Assembly (NCBI GenBank): GCA_026414325.1
Contig: JAOAJF010000003.1
Span: forward strand, 1-36,035
Origin: Microcaldota archaeon
GTDB taxonomy: Archaea > Micrarchaeota > Micrarchaeia > Anstonellales > Anstonellaceae
DNA: 36,035 nt
Direction of reading: 5' to 3'
Positions 1 through 36,035 of this stretch are shown here, one piece after another. The number at the start of each line of letters is the position of its first letter. Position 1 is the stretch's first letter. A program made the position numbers and the translations under genes. The notes below the pieces were generated by a model. That model made no database searches. It saw nothing but the letters and a program-made list of their open reading frames with translations, and had not been told where the DNA came from.

Positions 1-671
1 CCTTGGTTTTTTCCTTCATAAGCTAAAAATTCTAATTTATCTTTTCTAAATTCTCCTATGATTGCATTTAGGTGCCTTTCATAAACTTCTCCAAAATCTA
101 TAATCATATTTATTAGTTTTGTAGTATCAGCTGGGCTAAAGCCATATTTTTCAAAGCCAAATTCCACTTGATAGAGGTTGTTGTTTATTTTTTTTACTTT
201 AATTAAACTTTGTAAATCTGTTTCAATTACATCTCCTTTTTTAGTTATTAGGTTTATTTTTTTTCCATTAATTTTTATTGTATCAAATGGACTAGTTTTA
301 GGATCAGTTGCAACTAAGTTTAAGGTTGTGTCTTTTCCTATAGATAAAAATGCAAGGTATTTTAAGTTTGTGTTTGCTTCAAATAAATCAACTTTATTTT
401 CCTGTGTAGAACTATAATTAAATCTTTGTAAAATTCTTAGAGTATCTACATAAATGTCAAAAAAATGAGTTCTTGTTTTTAGAAAAACTGTTACATTAGG
501 AGTATAATTTTTTATAATGGTTGAATCTTGGCCCAAATTTTGAGTAAAAAAAGAGTTTTTAGAAGGAAGTCTTCCTTCTGCCTCTGTTGGAGATAATAAA
601 TTTGCTAAAGAAGCTGCTAAAGAAGGTGGAACAAACAATAAATTTTTATTTTGAAAAATTTTTGAGCTCAT
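1..671 (-). CDS. Hypothetical protein, partial (N-terminal ~223 aa; continues off the left edge)
   Basis: Read directly on the minus strand: ATG at 671, open to base 1 (MSSKIFQNKNLLFVPPSLAASLANLLSPTEAEGRLPSKNSFFTQNLGQDS...). Not in the supplied ORF list because its stop is outside the window. No family recognised. Confidence 0.75.
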   Translation of the reverse strand, partial: MSSKIFQNKNLLFVPPSLAASLANLLSPTEAEGRLPSKNSFFTQNLGQDSTIIKNYTPNVTVFLKTRTHFFDIYVDTLRILQRFNYSSTQENKVDLFEANTNLKYLAFLSIGKDTTLNLVATDPKTSPFDTIKINGKKINLITKKGDVIETDLQSLIKVKKINNNLYQVEFGFEKYGFSPADTTKLINMIIDFGEVYERHLNAIIGEFRKDKLEFLAYEGKNQ

Positions 672-705
672 AAACAAACCCAACTTTTAGACTATTTTTA
701 AATTT

Positions 706-5030: not shown

Positions 5031-5036
5031 GAAAAT

Positions 5037-5127
5037 CGGGCTCGGTGGGATTTGAACCCACGACCTTCAGCTTTCTTCTTAGAACAATTAGAAGGCTGCC
5101 GCTCTATCCAAACTGAGCTACGAGCCC
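5037..5127 (-). tRNA. tRNA-Arg (TCT) with 16-nt intron at 37/38
   Basis: Reverse complement GGGCTCG TA GCTC...GAGC G GCAGC CTTCTA[attgttctaagaagaa]A GCTGA AGGTC GTGGG TTCAAAT CCCAC CGAGCCC; intron 5073..5088. Removing 16 nt gives a 75-nt tRNA with anticodon TCT. Confidence 0.9.
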
Positions 5128-5181
5128 ACTAAAAAATATTTATTAGAATTATATTTAAAACCTTGTGTTATAAATAAGAGT

Positions 5182-8435: not shown

Positions 8436-10211
8436 TTATTTTTTGTTAAAAAAATCCATATTTGCTATAAGGCGATATTTTTGCATAAATTTTTTAATAT
8501 CTCTTCCTTCTTGCTCAAAAAGCTTTTCAGTTTCTTTTTCTGTTAGCTGATAGAGATTTTTTTGCTTTACTAATTCTTCTAAATCAAAATTGTTTGAAAG
8601 CAAAGCTTGCCTCAAAAGTTCAGCTAATGCAAAAGCATTAATCTTTTTTTGAGAATAAAGCCTTAGAGCTTTTATTAAAACTTCTTTTGTTAAATTTTCT
8701 ATAGCTAAACCCTCTCTCCTAAATTCAACCAAATGTTTTTCAAGAACTATTGCACTCTGCTTTGGCTCTAAGCCGTGTTCTAAAAACTCTTCAAATAAAA
8801 ATAGATTGTGCGAATTTAGAATTTGTAAAGCCAAATCCCTTCCAATTAATTTTTCATATTTTGCTAATCTTTCTGAATAAGGAACTATTTTTATTAATGA
8901 TTTTAAATAAGGTTTTGTACTAATTGGTCTTAAATCAGTTTCTGGATAAAGTCTCATCCAACTGCCAATAGGTCTTAAAAAACTCGAAGAGCCATCTTCA
9001 TTAGCTTTACGAGTTTCAGAAACCAAGGAATCTTGTTTTATTCTTTCAATTAATAAATCTATAGCATAAAGCACAATTTCTTTTTTCTCTGCAATTAAAA
9101 CAAAGGAGTCCTCTTCTTCTAATTCAAGCTCCTTTTTTAATTGATTAAGCTCTGAAGAAGAAATTTTGTATTTTTCTAAATTTTCATCCGAATGAATTAA
9201 ACCTTTTAGTGGACAGTAAGCTTTTATATAATCTAAGACTTCTGTTGCAAATCTTTTATTTGTATAAAGCTCTGTTCCTAACAAGCCTCTAAACTTTGGA
9301 ATTTTTAGAGCATAAACCACTCCTCCGTTTTTTAGAGCATTTAAAAATATGTTGCAAGCACTATTTTCAAAGATTTTACTAACATCTTTAGTTAAAATAG
9401 AAGAAAAATCTATTTTTCTTTTCTTTATTTCTTTTAAAATCTCTATTAGCTGAGTCTGCCTTTTTACTTCATTGTTTATTAAAAGCTCTAAAAGCTCTAT
9501 ATTCTGCAAACCCTTTATTTCTACTCTTGCACCTCCCTCTACAGAGATGTTTACATCTTGCCTAATAGAGCCAATCCCTCGCATTGTTAGAGGCATCAGT
9601 CTAAGAAGCTGGCCGATTTGTAAAGCTGCCTTTTTTGCATCAGAGGAATTTAGAAAAACTGGTTCAGTACTTATTTCTATAAGCGCAATACCTTGCCTAT
9701 CAAGCCTATAGTTAGTAGAATCATAAGACTGGCTTAAAATTCCTGCAGATTCTTCTTCTATACAAACTGTTTGAATAGGAACATTAATACTTCCTTTAAT
9801 TTCTCCACCTAAAGAAACAAGTGCTGTTCTTTGAAAGCCAGAAACATTTGAGCCATCTACTACTATTTTTCTCATAACATAAATCTCGTCTACTATTTTT
9901 GCACCAATAAATTTGGAAAAAGAGAGTGCATAAATCAAAGCATCTTGATTTATTAAATCAGGTGGCTCTTCGTCCATATCAACAAGAGAGCAGTTTTTAA
10001 AAGGAGCGATATAAAAAAAAGTTTTGGCTTTTTTTGATTCATAAACTGCAGCCTTATCAATCTGGCCCAGCTCTCCTGCAGCTGGATTTAGCTGCCTGAA
10101 AAATTTAATTGAAGGAAGTTTTTCGATCTCTGCATCTGGCATTTGAGCCAGAGTTGCAGTAAATAATTTTTTTCCTTCTACTCTTTGATGGATTTCTAGC
10201 CCACAGCGCAT
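8436..10211 (-). CDS. gatE: Glu-tRNA(Gln) amidotransferase subunit E
   Basis: MRCGLEIHQRVEGKKLFTATLAQ, GatB/E core (RQDVNISVEGGARVEIKGLQN, YPETDLRP), adjacent to gatD. Confidence 0.95.
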   Translation of the reverse strand: MRCGLEIHQRVEGKKLFTATLAQMPDAEIEKLPSIKFFRQLNPAAGELGQIDKAAVYESKKAKTFFYIAPFKNCSLVDMDEEPPDLINQDALIYALSFSKFIGAKIVDEIYVMRKIVVDGSNVSGFQRTALVSLGGEIKGSINVPIQTVCIEEESAGILSQSYDSTNYRLDRQGIALIEISTEPVFLNSSDAKKAALQIGQLLRLMPLTMRGIGSIRQDVNISVEGGARVEIKGLQNIELLELLINNEVKRQTQLIEILKEIKKRKIDFSSILTKDVSKIFENSACNIFLNALKNGGVVYALKIPKFRGLLGTELYTNKRFATEVLDYIKAYCPLKGLIHSDENLEKYKISSSELNQLKKELELEEEDSFVLIAEKKEIVLYAIDLLIERIKQDSLVSETRKANEDGSSSFLRPIGSWMRLYPETDLRPISTKPYLKSLIKIVPYSERLAKYEKLIGRDLALQILNSHNLFLFEEFLEHGLEPKQSAIVLEKHLVEFRREGLAIENLTKEVLIKALRLYSQKKINAFALAELLRQALLSNNFDLEELVKQKNLYQLTEKETEKLFEQEGRDIKKFMQKYRLIANMDFFNKK

Positions 10212-10213
10212 TT

Positions 10214-11578
10214 TTATTCCTCCTGCTCTAAAGCCTCCAGACTAGAATAAGGATTAATATCATAATTTATTGGTTTTAGCATAAGCTCCTTTACTTTTTT
10301 TGGGTCTTTGCTCTGGCCTAAAGCCCAGCAAAGCTTTACAAAAGCAGTTTCAACCAACCAATCGCAACCATTTCCGATTATTCCAATATCTTGCAAAATT
10401 CTTCCAGTTGAATAAGTCTGAAGCATTACTCGTCCTTCTAATGTTTGAGAGGCCATAACTAAAACAACACCGCTTGCTATAAGCTCTTTTAGCTCAGAGA
10501 TAACTTTTTTGTGCAGCTCTTGTTGGTGAGAATAAATTGGTAAATGGCCCAAGCCTGTGCCGGCTATTACCACCCCATCATATTTTGCCCAATGTTTTAT
10601 TTCTTCTGGCTTTAGACCAGGATAGGCCCAAGCTAAATGCACAGCTTGGCTAAACTTGTTTTTTAGTATTATTTTTTGTTTTTCTTCAAATTTTGGAAGA
10701 ACAAATTCTGGATTTAGCTCCACTTGCTTTTCTTTAAAATAGATTTTTGCAACTGGTCTTAGTCCAATGGATCTAAAGGCCCATCTTCCACTGCTGTGGC
10801 TTTTTCTCACTCTGGTTGCTAGATGCAAATAATTAAAATCATCTGAATAAGTTGCATGCATACAAACATAAACTCCTGCTATTTTCTTTTCAGCAGCTAA
10901 AAGAGAGCAAAACAGATTTTGCCTTGCATCTGAAGAGGGCCTATCTGAAGAGCGTTGAGAACCACATAAAATCAAGGGCTTTGCTAATCCCTCAAGAGCA
11001 TAATTTAGTGCAGCAGCAGTATAGCAAAGAGTATCAGTACCATGTAAAACAACTACTGCGTTTGCTCCATCATCAAAAATATTTTTTATTTCTTTGGCTA
11101 ATTCTTCCCATTCTGGTTGAGAAATATTTTCTGAAAGTAGGTTAAATACGTTTTTTGCTTTTAGTGGCTCGAATCTTTTTAGCTCAGGATAGAGCTCAAC
11201 AATTTCTTGTGGATTTAATTTTGAATCAACTGCTCCTGTTAGATAATCTACTTTTGAAGAAATTGTTCCTCCAGCACCTACTAAAACAAAAGAGTTTTTA
11301 TACTCTTGCTGTAGTTCTTCTTTTTTTAGGCCTTTTTTTTCAACTTCTCTTACCACAGCAGAAGAAGAAATTTTCTCTATTATTGCCCCAGAAATATCTA
11401 AACCAATATTGTAGCCAGAAGAGAGTTTTAGAACAATACAGTTTGGATCAGAGCCCAACTGCTTTGGAAGTAAAATGCCTCTAAATTCTTTTTTTGTGTC
11501 TTTGTAATAAATTTTAATTTCATCGCCTATTTCTATTTTTTTCTTTTTTAAAATGTCCAAAATTTTTTTACCATACAT
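10214..11578 (-). CDS. gatD: Glu-tRNA(Gln) amidotransferase subunit D (asparaginase-like)
   Basis: AGGTISSKVDYLTGAV, VVLHGTDTLCYTAAAL, LCGSQRSSDRPSSDARQNL; N-terminal GatD-type barrel domain. Confidence 0.95.
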   Translation of the reverse strand: MYGKKILDILKKKKIEIGDEIKIYYKDTKKEFRGILLPKQLGSDPNCIVLKLSSGYNIGLDISGAIIEKISSSAVVREVEKKGLKKEELQQEYKNSFVLVGAGGTISSKVDYLTGAVDSKLNPQEIVELYPELKRFEPLKAKNVFNLLSENISQPEWEELAKEIKNIFDDGANAVVVLHGTDTLCYTAAALNYALEGLAKPLILCGSQRSSDRPSSDARQNLFCSLLAAEKKIAGVYVCMHATYSDDFNYLHLATRVRKSHSSGRWAFRSIGLRPVAKIYFKEKQVELNPEFVLPKFEEKQKIILKNKFSQAVHLAWAYPGLKPEEIKHWAKYDGVVIAGTGLGHLPIYSHQQELHKKVISELKELIASGVVLVMASQTLEGRVMLQTYSTGRILQDIGIIGNGCDWLVETAFVKLCWALGQSKDPKKVKELMLKPINYDINPYSSLEALEQEE

Positions 11579-12524
11579 CCTCGATCCCTTCGGCTTTTAG
11601 GTTTAATTTGTATTCGTTTGCAACCAAATTTGGAGAAGCAGAGTTTAAAATTACTCCAGTCTGATGCTCTAATCCTGCCCATTTTGCAATACGAGGAGTT
11701 AGAGAGATATGAAAATGAAAATTTTTTACTCTATAAGGAGCAAAATGATACAAAATATTGTAAGGAGGATAGCCCAAATAAGAATCCTGAGTCCTGATAG
11801 CTATTAACAAAATTTTTGCAAGCTCTTTTAATAACTCATCGTTTAGATCGAGTATAGAAGCTATGTGTTTTTTTGGTAAAATCCAGGTTTCGAATTTATA
11901 TTTTGGAACAAAAGGGGCTAAAAACCAAAAATTTTTACTACTATAAATTTGTGGAAATTTTTTATTCTTAGCTATTTTGCAGAGTGGGCAATTTTTGGAA
12001 AGAACCTTTTGCTGTATTTTTACATAGTCTGGAACAAAAGGTAAAAAAACAAGCTGAGTGTGAGTGTGTTCTAAGGATGCTCCTGCAGCCTCCCACTCGT
12101 TTTTAAATACTGATGGGTATTTTAATTTTTTGTTCTTTGATCTAGCTAAAACTCTTTTTTGAATCATTTTTAGATAAAAATAGATTTCTTTTGTGCTAAG
12201 ATCTGAAAGAGTTTTAAAATGATCTGGGGTTTCTACCAAAACCTCATGAAAGCCATAGGCCTTTGCCCAGTTTTCACTCACTGCTGGAAATTTGTTTGGA
12301 AATACTCTATTTAGCCAAACACTCTGCCCTTCTAAAGTAGTTCTATCAATTTCAGGTGGAGTTAAATTTTCATTGCCTGGACAAAAAAAGCATTTTGAAG
12401 GGTCTTGTTTTTTTGTTGGTTTGGTTGGAACAAAATCATGAGGCCGAAATGCTCTTGAAGGAGTGATAATTGCAGTTCTTCCAAAAAAATCTCTTCTGAT
12501 TTCACCTTCAAAATCTTCTTGCAT
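11568..12524 (-). CDS. Galactose-1-phosphate uridylyltransferase (GalT) family nucleotidyltransferase
   Basis: CFFCPGNENLTPPEI, NRVFPNKFPA, EVLVETPDH, GASLEHTHTQLVFLPFVP (HIT-superfamily HxHxQ), CPLC. Overlaps the gatD start by 11 nt. Confidence 0.85.
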   Translation of the reverse strand: MQEDFEGEIRRDFFGRTAIITPSRAFRPHDFVPTKPTKKQDPSKCFFCPGNENLTPPEIDRTTLEGQSVWLNRVFPNKFPAVSENWAKAYGFHEVLVETPDHFKTLSDLSTKEIYFYLKMIQKRVLARSKNKKLKYPSVFKNEWEAAGASLEHTHTQLVFLPFVPDYVKIQQKVLSKNCPLCKIAKNKKFPQIYSSKNFWFLAPFVPKYKFETWILPKKHIASILDLNDELLKELAKILLIAIRTQDSYLGYPPYNILYHFAPYRVKNFHFHISLTPRIAKWAGLEHQTGVILNSASPNLVANEYKLNLKAEGIEDVW

Positions 12525-31034: not shown

Positions 31035-31076
31035 TTACCAATATTTATAAAAATATCCAAATAATTGCTTAAATAT

Positions 31077-32138
31077 ATGGCAACTAAAGAAGCAATGTTT
31101 TATAATATAATAAAAAATACCCCTATAAATAATTTGCTTAGATGTAGATTGTGCTCGCATTATTGTGTAATTGCTCCTGGAAAAGAAGGGCTTTGTTTAG
31201 TTAGAAAAAATATTGATGGAAAGCTCTACTCGTTAAATTGGGCAAAAGCAGTATCTTTAAATATCGATCCTATAGAAAAAAAGCCTTTTTTTCATTTTAA
31301 GCCAGGAACAAGAGTGCTTTCATTTGGAACTCCTGGTTGTAATTTTAGATGTTTAAATTGTCAGAACTGGGATTTGAGCCAGGGGGTTAGAGAACATGGA
31401 AAAACTGCCCTGGACATTATAGAGGATATTGAGCCAAAGGAGATTGTGAAAATTGCAATAGAGTATAAGGCTGATGGTTTTGCTTATACTTATTCAGAGC
31501 CAACAATATTTTTTGAATATGCTTATGACACAATAGTACAAGCAAGAAAAAATAAATTGAGTGCAGCAAAGTTCCATACATTTGTGAGCAATGGGTATTT
31601 TTCAAAAGAGTTGTTAGATTTTATAATAGAACAAAAACTTCTTGAGGCTATAAGAATAGACCTAAAATTTATTGAGGATGAAAAATATTACAGGGTCTGT
31701 GGAGGAAGACTAAAGCCAGTTTTAGAGAATATAAAAAAAGTTTACAAATCTGGTATTCACTTAGAGCTAATAAATTTAGTAATTCCAAAAGAAAACGACC
31801 AGGAATTTGAAATTGAAAAATTAGCAAAAACAGTTTATGAGATTAGCCCAGAAATTCCTTTGCATTTTTCCAGATTCTTTCCATACTATAAATTAGCAGA
31901 TAGAGAGCCAACACCTCTTAAAACTTTAGAAAAAGCAAAAAAAATTGCTTTAGAAATTGGGCTAAAATATGTATATATAGGAAATACTAGCTTAGAGGGT
32001 GCAGAAGATACCTATTGCCCAGAATGTAATTTGCTATTAATAAAAAGAAATAGATTTTTTATAGAGAAAAATGTTTTTGAAAAAACAAAAGAGCCTATTT
32101 GTCCTAATTGTAGTTATAAAATAAACATTGTTTTATAA
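31077..32138 (+). CDS. AmmeMemoRadiSam-system-type radical SAM enzyme (PflA-like)
   Basis: CRLCSHYCVIAPGKEGLCLVRKN, RVLSFGTPGCNFRCLNCQNWDLSQ (CxxxCxxC), YTYSEPTIFFEYA; C-terminal CPEC...CPNC. ATG at 31077 preferred, with TATA (TTTATAAAAATA) about 29 nt upstream. Confidence 0.88.
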   Translation: MATKEAMFYNIIKNTPINNLLRCRLCSHYCVIAPGKEGLCLVRKNIDGKLYSLNWAKAVSLNIDPIEKKPFFHFKPGTRVLSFGTPGCNFRCLNCQNWDLSQGVREHGKTALDIIEDIEPKEIVKIAIEYKADGFAYTYSEPTIFFEYAYDTIVQARKNKLSAAKFHTFVSNGYFSKELLDFIIEQKLLEAIRIDLKFIEDEKYYRVCGGRLKPVLENIKKVYKSGIHLELINLVIPKENDQEFEIEKLAKTVYEISPEIPLHFSRFFPYYKLADREPTPLKTLEKAKKIALEIGLKYVYIGNTSLEGAEDTYCPECNLLLIKRNRFFIEKNVFEKTKEPICPNCSYKINIVL

Positions 32139-32139
32139 A

Positions 32140-32469
32140 CTAAATGAATTTAGTTCCGCAGCTTGGACAAGAGGTCATAAAAAAATTTGCTCTATAGTTA
32201 CAAATTGGGCAGATATAAACAGAGCTAAAATCTCCTTGTTCTTTTGTTAAGGGTTTTTTGCATTTGGAGCATTTTTGATTTTTTAAATTGTTTGGCTCTC
32301 CGCAAAATGGGCATTTTATTCTAAATAAGAGCTCAGTATGAACCCCGCAATGTGGACAGCGCTCTAAAGAGATATCAAATTCTTTTTTGCAGTTAGGGCA
32401 TTTGAGAATTATGTTTTGATAGGATGATTTTTTTGAAAATAATGAAGAGAGAAAATCCAATATTCCCAT
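32140..32469 (-). CDS. Small protein with three zinc ribbons
   Basis: Six CxxC knuckles: CPNC/CPHC, CPFC/CSKC, CPIC/CPSC. Confidence 0.75.
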   Translation of the reverse strand: MGILDFLSSLFSKKSSYQNIILKCPNCKKEFDISLERCPHCGVHTELLFRIKCPFCGEPNNLKNQKCSKCKKPLTKEQGDFSSVYICPICNYRANFFMTSCPSCGTKFI

Positions 32470-33717: not shown

Positions 33718-36035
33718 TTAGTACAAAGACAAAGGAATGCTTAACTTAAAAAAAAGATTAAAACGTCCATAACCGTTAAGTTTTTCAGAATCCCCAAGAC
33801 CAATTGAATTTATCCCAACTGTGGCGTATCCACCCCTGATACCCCCTAATTGCAAACCCAAAGATATTTGATCAACATCAACATATTCTTTCTTTCCTTC
33901 TTCTTTTTTCGTTATTTTCGAGTAAGAATAGTTTCCAAATAACCTAAACTTCTCAGATAAGTTTATAGCAGCCCCTATCTGAAAAGCAGTGAGAGAAAAG
34001 GGATCAAATTCGGAATCGGTTTTGGAATAATGACCAGTAACGTAAAAGAGCACTTTATTATCAGCATTTACATATAAATTTCCACTAAAAGAGTAATGCT
34101 TATATATATCAGGACTTTCAGGTATGCTAAATTCTGATTTTTCTCCTGAGAGTACAGTACCAACAGTGGTATCATCTATTTTTGTAGATACTGCAATTTG
34201 ACCGCCAAAAGATTCTCCACTTTTATAAAGTAAGATGCCAAAACTAGTAAGACCCAAAGAAAGCTTGCCTCCAAGAGCGGCAGGTGAAGTCTTAAAATCT
34301 TTCATTTCACTCAAAGTGGCAATAACCCCCCATTTGTTGCTTTCACCTAGAAGAGAAAAAGTTAAACCTAATTTTCCTTCTTTATTTTTAGAACAGCCGA
34401 GATAAGCTCTAAGACCATCAGGAAATAAGAGATCAATTGAAATATCATCTGAAACAGAAAAAAAGCCTTTATGAAAATTTGAATTAATAATAGATGCAAG
34501 CTTAATTGAGATAGCTTCTAGAGCAGCTACTTTCGCCGCCTCATGCATAAGAGAAGCCTGACGGATATATTTGTCAATCTCTTCTTTTAAGGAGTTTAAC
34601 TCCTTAGTAAGTTGTTCGGGCTTAAGGCTAAGGTTTCTTATAAATATATCAGTAGAAGTTGGATACTTTGCAGAAATAGTAAGGATTGAACCATCTGGAA
34701 GGAAGAGATAACTACCTGGGAATGATAAACGGAGATCTGCTTTTTTAACTTTATCTTTTAGCTTTTTATTGTTTAAGTCTAGACTTAAAGAAGCTGCAAA
34801 ATGTTTACTAGCATAACCCCCAACATTAAGAGTTTTGTCTATATTATTATAAGTAATAGCTCCTCCAAATAAATTATCAGTAATAAAACCCAAACCTCCC
34901 TCTTGAAATTTATGGTTCTTCATTTTTTTACCAGCACCATATAGTTGAAAATACCCTGCAGTATAATACTTATGGCCTAAATTAATAAGAGATATTGCAA
35001 AAGAATGCTTATCTAAAACATTCTTAACAGACCTTGTCTTTGGTAAATCTGAAGGTTTGCTAATAGGTTCAAAGAAATCAGCATCTTTGTTAAACATATA
35101 AGCAGATATTGCTAACAATTCTGCGTTTTCTTTATCAGCAGAAACCTTAGCAAAAGTTCCAGCTACATTTCCTTGTGCATCAATACTTGAAAATACTGCT
35201 GAATCTTGTATTAGAACTGGTATTTTAAAACCAACAAAACCAGCCCTTACTTGATTTTTATAATCTACATTTTTATCTGTTCCACCAAGAGCTTGAACAC
35301 CTATCTGCAAGGAATTAGAAAAGAGGCTCATTTCAGCTAAAAAATTATTAAACTTTTCTAACTGAGAATTCTTAGCTGGATCTCCTTGGCTGTAATTATT
35401 GTTACTTACTACATGAAACCATTGATCACCTATTTTTATATAAGCACCACCTATTTGGTCTTTTTGTTGGCTTTTTTTATCTTCATTAGTTTGCAAAGTA
35501 TCACAATAATAAACTAAAAGATTTGCATCATCAACCGCAAAAGAAGCGGGAGGAAGAGGTGGTCCTTCTACAGGTATAAATGTTAAAGGTAAATTAGATG
35601 TTTCTTGTTCCTTAATTATCCGATCTATTAAAGATTTGCTATATACGTTTGCTGAACTAAGGCGTATTTCTTTAATTTTTTGGTCAATCTTATTCTCATA
35701 AAAATAATTTACTAGAAAATCGAAAATATTTACTGCTTTGGATGTAAGATTCTGTGCTTCAGCACCAGCAGCAGTAATAGTATCTTTTACTTTTTGAGCT
35801 GCAATTCCAACATAAGAATTGTCGCCCCTAAGAAAAATTTTACCCCCACCACTTGCTGTGTCTACTGCATCTGAAGAAAATAACCCACTATCACCTATAA
35901 ACGCTCCTTCTCCTTCTAGACTACGTGGAGAAAAGTATTTTACAAATAAGTCATGGTATTTCCTTTCAATATTTAGAAGATACTCGTGCTCTTGTGAAGT
36001 AAAAGTATAGAAAGTAGATAAAAACGGGTTAAAGT
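33718..36035 (-). CDS. Large protein with beta-strand-rich, porin-like C-terminal region (partial; runs off the right edge)
   Basis: The supplied ORF starts at a TTG (35496), but the same frame stays open to the window end (...FNPFLSTFYTFTSQEHEYLLNIERKYHDLF...VYYCDTLQTNEDKK...). C-terminal half has repeated alternating, Gly/aromatic-rich strands ending GYGRFNLFFKLSIPLSLY*. Confidence 0.7.
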   Translation of the reverse strand, partial: FNPFLSTFYTFTSQEHEYLLNIERKYHDLFVKYFSPRSLEGEGAFIGDSGLFSSDAVDTASGGGKIFLRGDNSYVGIAAQKVKDTITAAGAEAQNLTSKAVNIFDFLVNYFYENKIDQKIKEIRLSSANVYSKSLIDRIIKEQETSNLPLTFIPVEGPPLPPASFAVDDANLLVYYCDTLQTNEDKKSQQKDQIGGAYIKIGDQWFHVVSNNNYSQGDPAKNSQLEKFNNFLAEMSLFSNSLQIGVQALGGTDKNVDYKNQVRAGFVGFKIPVLIQDSAVFSSIDAQGNVAGTFAKVSADKENAELLAISAYMFNKDADFFEPISKPSDLPKTRSVKNVLDKHSFAISLINLGHKYYTAGYFQLYGAGKKMKNHKFQEGGLGFITDNLFGGAITYNNIDKTLNVGGYASKHFAASLSLDLNNKKLKDKVKKADLRLSFPGSYLFLPDGSILTISAKYPTSTDIFIRNLSLKPEQLTKELNSLKEEIDKYIRQASLMHEAAKVAALEAISIKLASIINSNFHKGFFSVSDDISIDLLFPDGLRAYLGCSKNKEGKLGLTFSLLGESNKWGVIATLSEMKDFKTSPAALGGKLSLGLTSFGILLYKSGESFGGQIAVSTKIDDTTVGTVLSGEKSEFSIPESPDIYKHYSFSGNLYVNADNKVLFYVTGHYSKTDSEFDPFSLTAFQIGAAINLSEKFRLFGNYSYSKITKKEEGKKEYVDVDQISLGLQLGGIRGGYATVGINSIGLGDSEKLNGYGRFNLFFKLSIPLSLY

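Follow-up and report, generated by a model that had tools for sequence, protein, structure and literature searches.

Giant proteins with a barrel-like C-terminal domain form a lineage-specific family in one Micrarchaeota order

The stretch of DNA analysed here (the window) is a complete contig of 36,035 bp from a Micrarchaeota genome of 798 kb, assembled in 62 contigs and estimated to be 84% complete. It carries GatD/GatE, archaeal HMG-CoA synthase, thiolase and DUF35 genes, as well as genes for FtsZ and a radical SAM enzyme (all names except the last two were assigned by reading the sequences), and its gene content marks the contig as archaeal. A single tRNA gene call deserves comment: ARAGORN names positions 5036-5128 (minus strand) tRNA-Pyl(CUA), but by our reading of the sequence this is a tRNA-Arg(UCU) with an anticodon-loop intron of ~17 nt, and there is therefore no sign of UAG recoding.

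At the edge of the contig lies part of a gene for a giant protein, the start of which is lost because its minus-strand frame runs off the end (Table 1). An earlier sequence-only reading of this DNA had claimed that the frame is open from its stop to the window edge, and no stop interrupts the 771 codons between 36033 and 33718. The TTG at 35496, which that reading took to be internal, very probably is, because the frame continues without a stop for 537 bases upstream of it, and relatives of 1,404-1,850 aa far exceed the open reading frame that begins there. Comparison with these relatives suggests that the fragment lacks several hundred to about 1,000 N-terminal residues.

Table 1. Positions in the window of the giant-protein gene, its parts and its conserved neighbours.
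Feature	Coordinates	Strand	Basis or remark
Giant-protein gene, 5' end absent at contig edge	33718..36033	-	Open frame, 771 codons plus stop TAA (33718-33720)
C-terminal end of the predicted alpha-helical N-terminal part, residues 1-186	35476..36033	-	Alpha-type hydrophobic moment; residues 1-180 without dyads
Family-HMM region, residues 187-323	35065..35475	-	21.2 bits with an HMM of nine other members
Region of the conserved hairpin motif GAYIKIGDQWFHVVSNN	35401..35451	-	Family pattern D-I-x-I-x-x-x-G-x-W-[YF]-x-phi
Predicted amphipathic beta (barrel-like) domain, residues ~255-771, ending ...FKLSIPLSLY	33721..35271	-	Amphipathicity, dyad repeats and strand meander of low-confidence models
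Putative helical pair inside the beta domain, residues ~472-521	34471..34620	-	Low-confidence models and inspection of relatives' sequences; helical insert of L082 at the corresponding place
Conserved neighbour with N-terminal signal sequence, extracellular domain and C-terminal transmembrane (TM) helix	32491..33615	-	Follows the giant gene after ~100 bp in several genera
Conserved zinc-ribbon protein, second neighbour in the syntenic block	32140..32469	-	
AmmeMemoRadiSam radical SAM enzyme, next in the block	31065..32138	+	Order matches G003

What had drawn attention to this protein was an alternation of polar and hydrophobic residues towards its C terminus, reminiscent of porins. The observation is real: the beta segments quoted in support of it are present, as is the final ...FKLSIPLSLY with Tyr as the last residue, and the alternation exceeds chance, with 10 dyad-repeat windows in residues 205-771 compared with 4.9 expected from shuffles and a beta-moment z of +2.8. 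The last third of the full-length protein has a barrel-like pattern that merits direct testing.

Searches with the window protein returned no relative in a GTDB r220 scan, IMG/VR, plasmids or phages, and no convincing match in Pfam, NCBIfam, PHROGs or PDB. The matches that direct searches did produce were noise (an S16-protease gene, a repeat-rich ORF and a frame over carbamate kinase), and a 26-bp DNA match in contig C11 proved to be intergenic. Sequence search alone would have given an orphan; the family was found through the same slot beside the TM-anchored neighbour in relatives, as this neighbour is kept in most genomes of the window's Micrarchaeota family. At that slot lie giants of at least 1,140 aa in G003, 1,435 aa in G014 (from its likely start), 1,850 aa in G002 and 1,504 aa in G012, each of which ends in barrel-like strands. 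The gap between the giant and the TM gene is 102 bp in the window and 91-111 bp in G003, G002 and G012, and the order giant, TM protein, zinc ribbon and radical SAM enzyme is identical in the window and G003. The first three of these genes recur, as blocks or in part, in G000, G003, G014, G002 and G012. The position upstream of the TM-anchored protein holds for the window gene, as for the g1, g3 and g4 members; in the giant-bearing g2 and g5 genomes, the giant does not adjoin the TM protein.

Between G000 and G003, the TM protein is 32% identical, the zinc-ribbon protein 49% and the radical SAM enzyme 60%, whereas the giants have no significant BLAST match to one another; the giant is diverging far faster than its neighbours. 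Near the same TM neighbour in g5 and g7, other large signal-less proteins (505-915 aa) replace the barrel-like giant (L044:5366-7996, L045:1624-10902 and L039:4851-11164).

Profile searches define a family of 11 members in three families (f1, f6 and f9) of one Micrarchaeota order. Searches with the slot giants and with profiles built from them added giants of 1,516 aa (G027, complete), at least 1,339 aa (G024), 1,404 aa (G004), 1,512 aa (G018), 1,499 aa (G013) and 1,466 aa (G017). Comparison of profile groups A2 and A3 by hhalign shows them to be homologous (E 1.7e-21). When profile A2 was run against 301 genomes of the phylum, there were only marginal matches outside the order, and the family has no match in Pfam, NCBIfam, PDB, plasmids, phages or IMG/VR. 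The best explanation is that these giants are a previously unnamed, fast-evolving chromosomal family of about 1,400-1,850 aa that is order-specific as far as searched. A phage or plasmid origin found no support. Three of the 11 members are cut by contig ends (window 33718-36035, L029:1-3423 and L053:3-4022), which may reflect strain-level variability of giant genes that breaks assemblies. A protein start free of Cys and Trp also runs off the left end of the window (3-683, minus strand); its local similarity to L054 is marginal (E 0.0075, from a very small database) and, as it shows no similarity to profile A2, its place in the family as a further fragment found no support.

Membership of the window protein itself can be judged from several measures. 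A hairpin motif, GxWY/F, is present in nearly all members, and the distance from its Trp to the C terminus is 567 aa in the window protein and 541-656 aa in the other motif-bearing members. Groups A2 and A3 independently picked one short stretch of the window protein, around GAYIKIGDQWFHVVSN. An HMM of the 150 aa around the motif, constructed from nine other members, gives the window protein 21.2 bits over the full region compared with at most 6.9 for 2,000 shuffles, although the region was picked after the motif was seen, which adds some selection. This score is mid-range for the family, as true members span 1.8 to 69 bits when left out one at a time. Lengthening the HMM region lowered the best-domain score of the window protein to 10.9 bits, against 8.8 for the best shuffle, and an HMM limited to the beta domain gave no score for it. 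Synteny together with the one 150-aa profile region makes it very likely that the window gene belongs to this lineage-specific giant family.

The barrel-like pattern, the aromatic last residue and a weak NCBIfam match to the OmpO porin (E 0.06) would also fit a bacterial outer-membrane protein, either acquired laterally, as the sequence-only reading had suggested, or brought in by a contig chimeric with bacterial DNA. We consider both versions highly improbable. No relative was found in bacteria, plasmids, phages or elsewhere; the impression that the segment is less rich in A/T homopolymers than its neighbours did not hold, as its GC content (0.334), GC3 (0.198) and codon usage are all in the range seen for the window's remaining genes; and the gene is syntenic in sister genera, with the same gene order repeated in several independent Micrarchaeota genomes. 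Recent lateral acquisition and chimerism are therefore not supported.

Members share a predicted layout of a large alpha-helical N-terminal part, a beta-hairpin and a C-terminal domain of ~500 aa made of amphipathic strands with a helical insert. Their N-terminal parts are strongly alpha-type, and G, Y, F, W, T, S and N make up 36-47% of the C-terminal composition. With moment and dyad measures devised for this analysis, and few control proteins, the C-terminal domains of ten non-redundant members exceeded 15 soluble controls in both beta-minus-alpha moment (p 0.0021) and dyad ratio (p 0.00018). In neither measure was there a significant difference from six E. coli barrels (p 0.18 and 0.073, respectively). 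Dyads are 1.95 times as frequent as expected in the window protein and 1.99 times in OmpF. The amphipathicity of the window beta domain is within the range of known barrels, on a measure that does not separate barrels from every soluble beta protein: BamB, a soluble propeller, has values that overlap those of the family, and amphipathicity is weak in L033, L053 and L054.

Structure prediction gave models of very low confidence. AlphaFold2 reached a mean pLDDT of 33.5 for the window fragment as a single sequence, with helices at a place matching the insert of L082, and 33.2 for the L082 domain with L081 (two sequences). The low-confidence L082 model has about 24 strands, mostly of 8-11 residues, around the helical insert. 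Its best Foldseek match was non-significant (E 0.018); porins and VDAC were the commonest entries in a list that also holds propellers, such as acylaminoacyl-peptidase and sortilin. The window-fragment model gave nothing significant, with VDAC among the noise. With a mean pLDDT of about 33 in each run, the models do not establish the fold, and a soluble beta fold is possible; sequence and low-confidence models support calling the C-terminal domain 'barrel-like' in pattern rather than a 'barrel'.

The giant could accordingly be a soluble protein, cytosolic or secreted, whose C terminus is a propeller, a beta-sandwich array or another soluble fold and whose porin look reflects generic amphipathicity. 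The overlap of the weaker members with BamB and the propellers among the Foldseek matches point in this direction, but the predicted strands are mostly longer than is typical of propellers, and dyad enrichment and C-terminal composition are nearer to those of barrels. Evidence on export also bears on this possibility. Judged by hydrophobicity in the complete relatives, seven of eight lack an N-terminal hydrophobic segment and L054 has a weak one, a pattern at odds with export through Sec. The N terminus of G027 (MFKHKTVRKIANYTSVLYTL...) is K/R-rich and weakly hydrophobic, and the start of the G002 and G012 giants is well placed, as in-frame stops lie close before it and a TATA-like TTTAATAA lies upstream. 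A search for the BamA homologue that a classical barrel would call for found Omp85 in none of 84 genomes of the order (the window's own being the incomplete genome described above), whereas the seven control genomes that pass the cut-off are all bacteria. The missing signal and the missing Omp85 both favour a soluble giant, and together they argue against a classical porin. On the other side, Cys makes up only 0-0.34% of all members compared with typically about 1-2% in neighbouring genes, an indirect indication of work outside the cytosol, and fast divergence, as expected of exposed or host-facing proteins, likewise suggests an exposed location. Weighing these points, we hold a soluble giant to be a serious possibility that nevertheless falls short of being probable. 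Of the earlier proposal of an archaeal beta-barrel surface protein, the part that stands is a giant archaeal protein with a barrel-like amphipathic beta C terminus; a transmembrane barrel is left undecided by the lack of Omp85, the mostly missing signal and the low pLDDT.

A surface role could take another form. The organism of the window is uncultured. In the part of a report on a cultured Micrarchaeote considered here, a hexagonal S-layer is described above the cytoplasmic membrane, and no lipid outer membrane is described (PMC11329633). By analogy with SlaA/SlaB of Sulfolobales, the giant might build an S-layer or surface lattice for which the adjacent TM-anchored protein serves as stalk. 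Like that archaeal pair, the giants are encoded beside a TM-anchored extracellular protein, as a conserved pair ~100 bp apart, and they are Cys-poor and fast evolving. Unlike S-layer proteins, however, most complete members carry no signal peptide; no match to S-layer families and no sequence relation to SlaA/SlaB was found, and the adjacency is absent from g2 and g5. We regard this analogy as rather unlikely to apply.

The reading that we prefer is a new lineage-specific giant family with a barrel-like domain that acts at the cell envelope or in host-cell contact. The exposed portion would be the large helical domain, and the beta domain, barrel-like and closed on itself, would associate with a membrane or the surface layer. 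The giant may work next to or with its membrane-anchored neighbour, and its export would probably follow a route without a classical N-terminal signal. An extracytoplasmic role is probable, and a closed, barrel-like beta domain is somewhat favoured. We consider the chances evenly balanced for the combination of a lineage-specific family, such a domain and such a role, leaving aside any membrane-spanning step. Membrane insertion is plausible but unproven: a truly membrane-spanning barrel is doubtful, and a transmembrane beta-barrel family in archaea without Omp85 and mostly without a Sec signal, inserted into their own envelope or a host membrane, is unlikely.

Transmembrane beta-barrels are considered a hallmark of bacteria and their organelles. 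The giants resemble bacterial outer-membrane barrels (porins, FadL and TonB-dependent receptors) in their long amphipathic dyad-repeat strands, their G- and aromatic-rich, Cys-poor composition, and a strand at the very C terminus, often with an aromatic residue at or near its end. They differ in being archaeal, with no Omp85 found and mostly no Sec signal, in their very large helical N-terminal part and in the absence of sequence similarity. As in autotransporters (type V secretion), a large N-terminal part and a C-terminal barrel-like domain occupy one chain; in the giants, however, the N-terminal part is helical rather than a beta-helix, a signal peptide is mostly missing, there is no homology, and the domain, at ~500 aa, is larger than the autotransporter translocator of ~12 strands. 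Barrel-like giants across an order of small-genome archaea, without the known assembly machine, would make the building of membrane barrels by archaea directly testable. Even if the domain is soluble, these genes commit much coding capacity (up to 5.5 kb in genomes of ~1 Mb), and a giant that diverges fast beside a surface protein would still be a candidate for the host-contact apparatus of Micrarchaeota.

Two further features of these loci were observed. In several genera, the barrel-like giant shares a tandem with further giant proteins that lack a signal (485-1,126 aa), one of which has TPR repeats (L072:10420-16993, L071:3-5916, L067:3390-4847 and 9166-11877, and L080:709-5397); the g2 tandem adjoins HMG-CoA synthase, thiolase and DUF35 genes. 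A hexapeptide, M-phi-phi-F-Q-phi (MFLFQV, MLIFQV, MFIFQL and others), also stands at the start of several giants and of proteins encoded in their operons, which are unrelated afterwards; it heads many signal-less proteins that otherwise have nothing in common. Such starts occur in f1 genomes at L031:3693, L072:13602 and 16993 (minus strand), L080:709 and 3682, and at L109, L101, L094, L105 and L136. The string MFLFQV was not found in the literature searched. The corresponding DNA pattern occurs 60 times in 20 f1 genomes compared with 12 times for a reversed control, and it is also commoner than the control across the whole order (by pattern counts, not gene starts); matches in the window's own genome are attributable to chance. 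About 27 of 44 inspected unique matches begin ORFs of 150 aa or more, and most of these are closely preceded by an in-frame stop. From background composition, about one such start would be expected in 20 genomes, and the peptide follows none of 1,619 internal Met residues. As its codons vary, selection seems to act on the peptide, which could be a new targeting or export tag.
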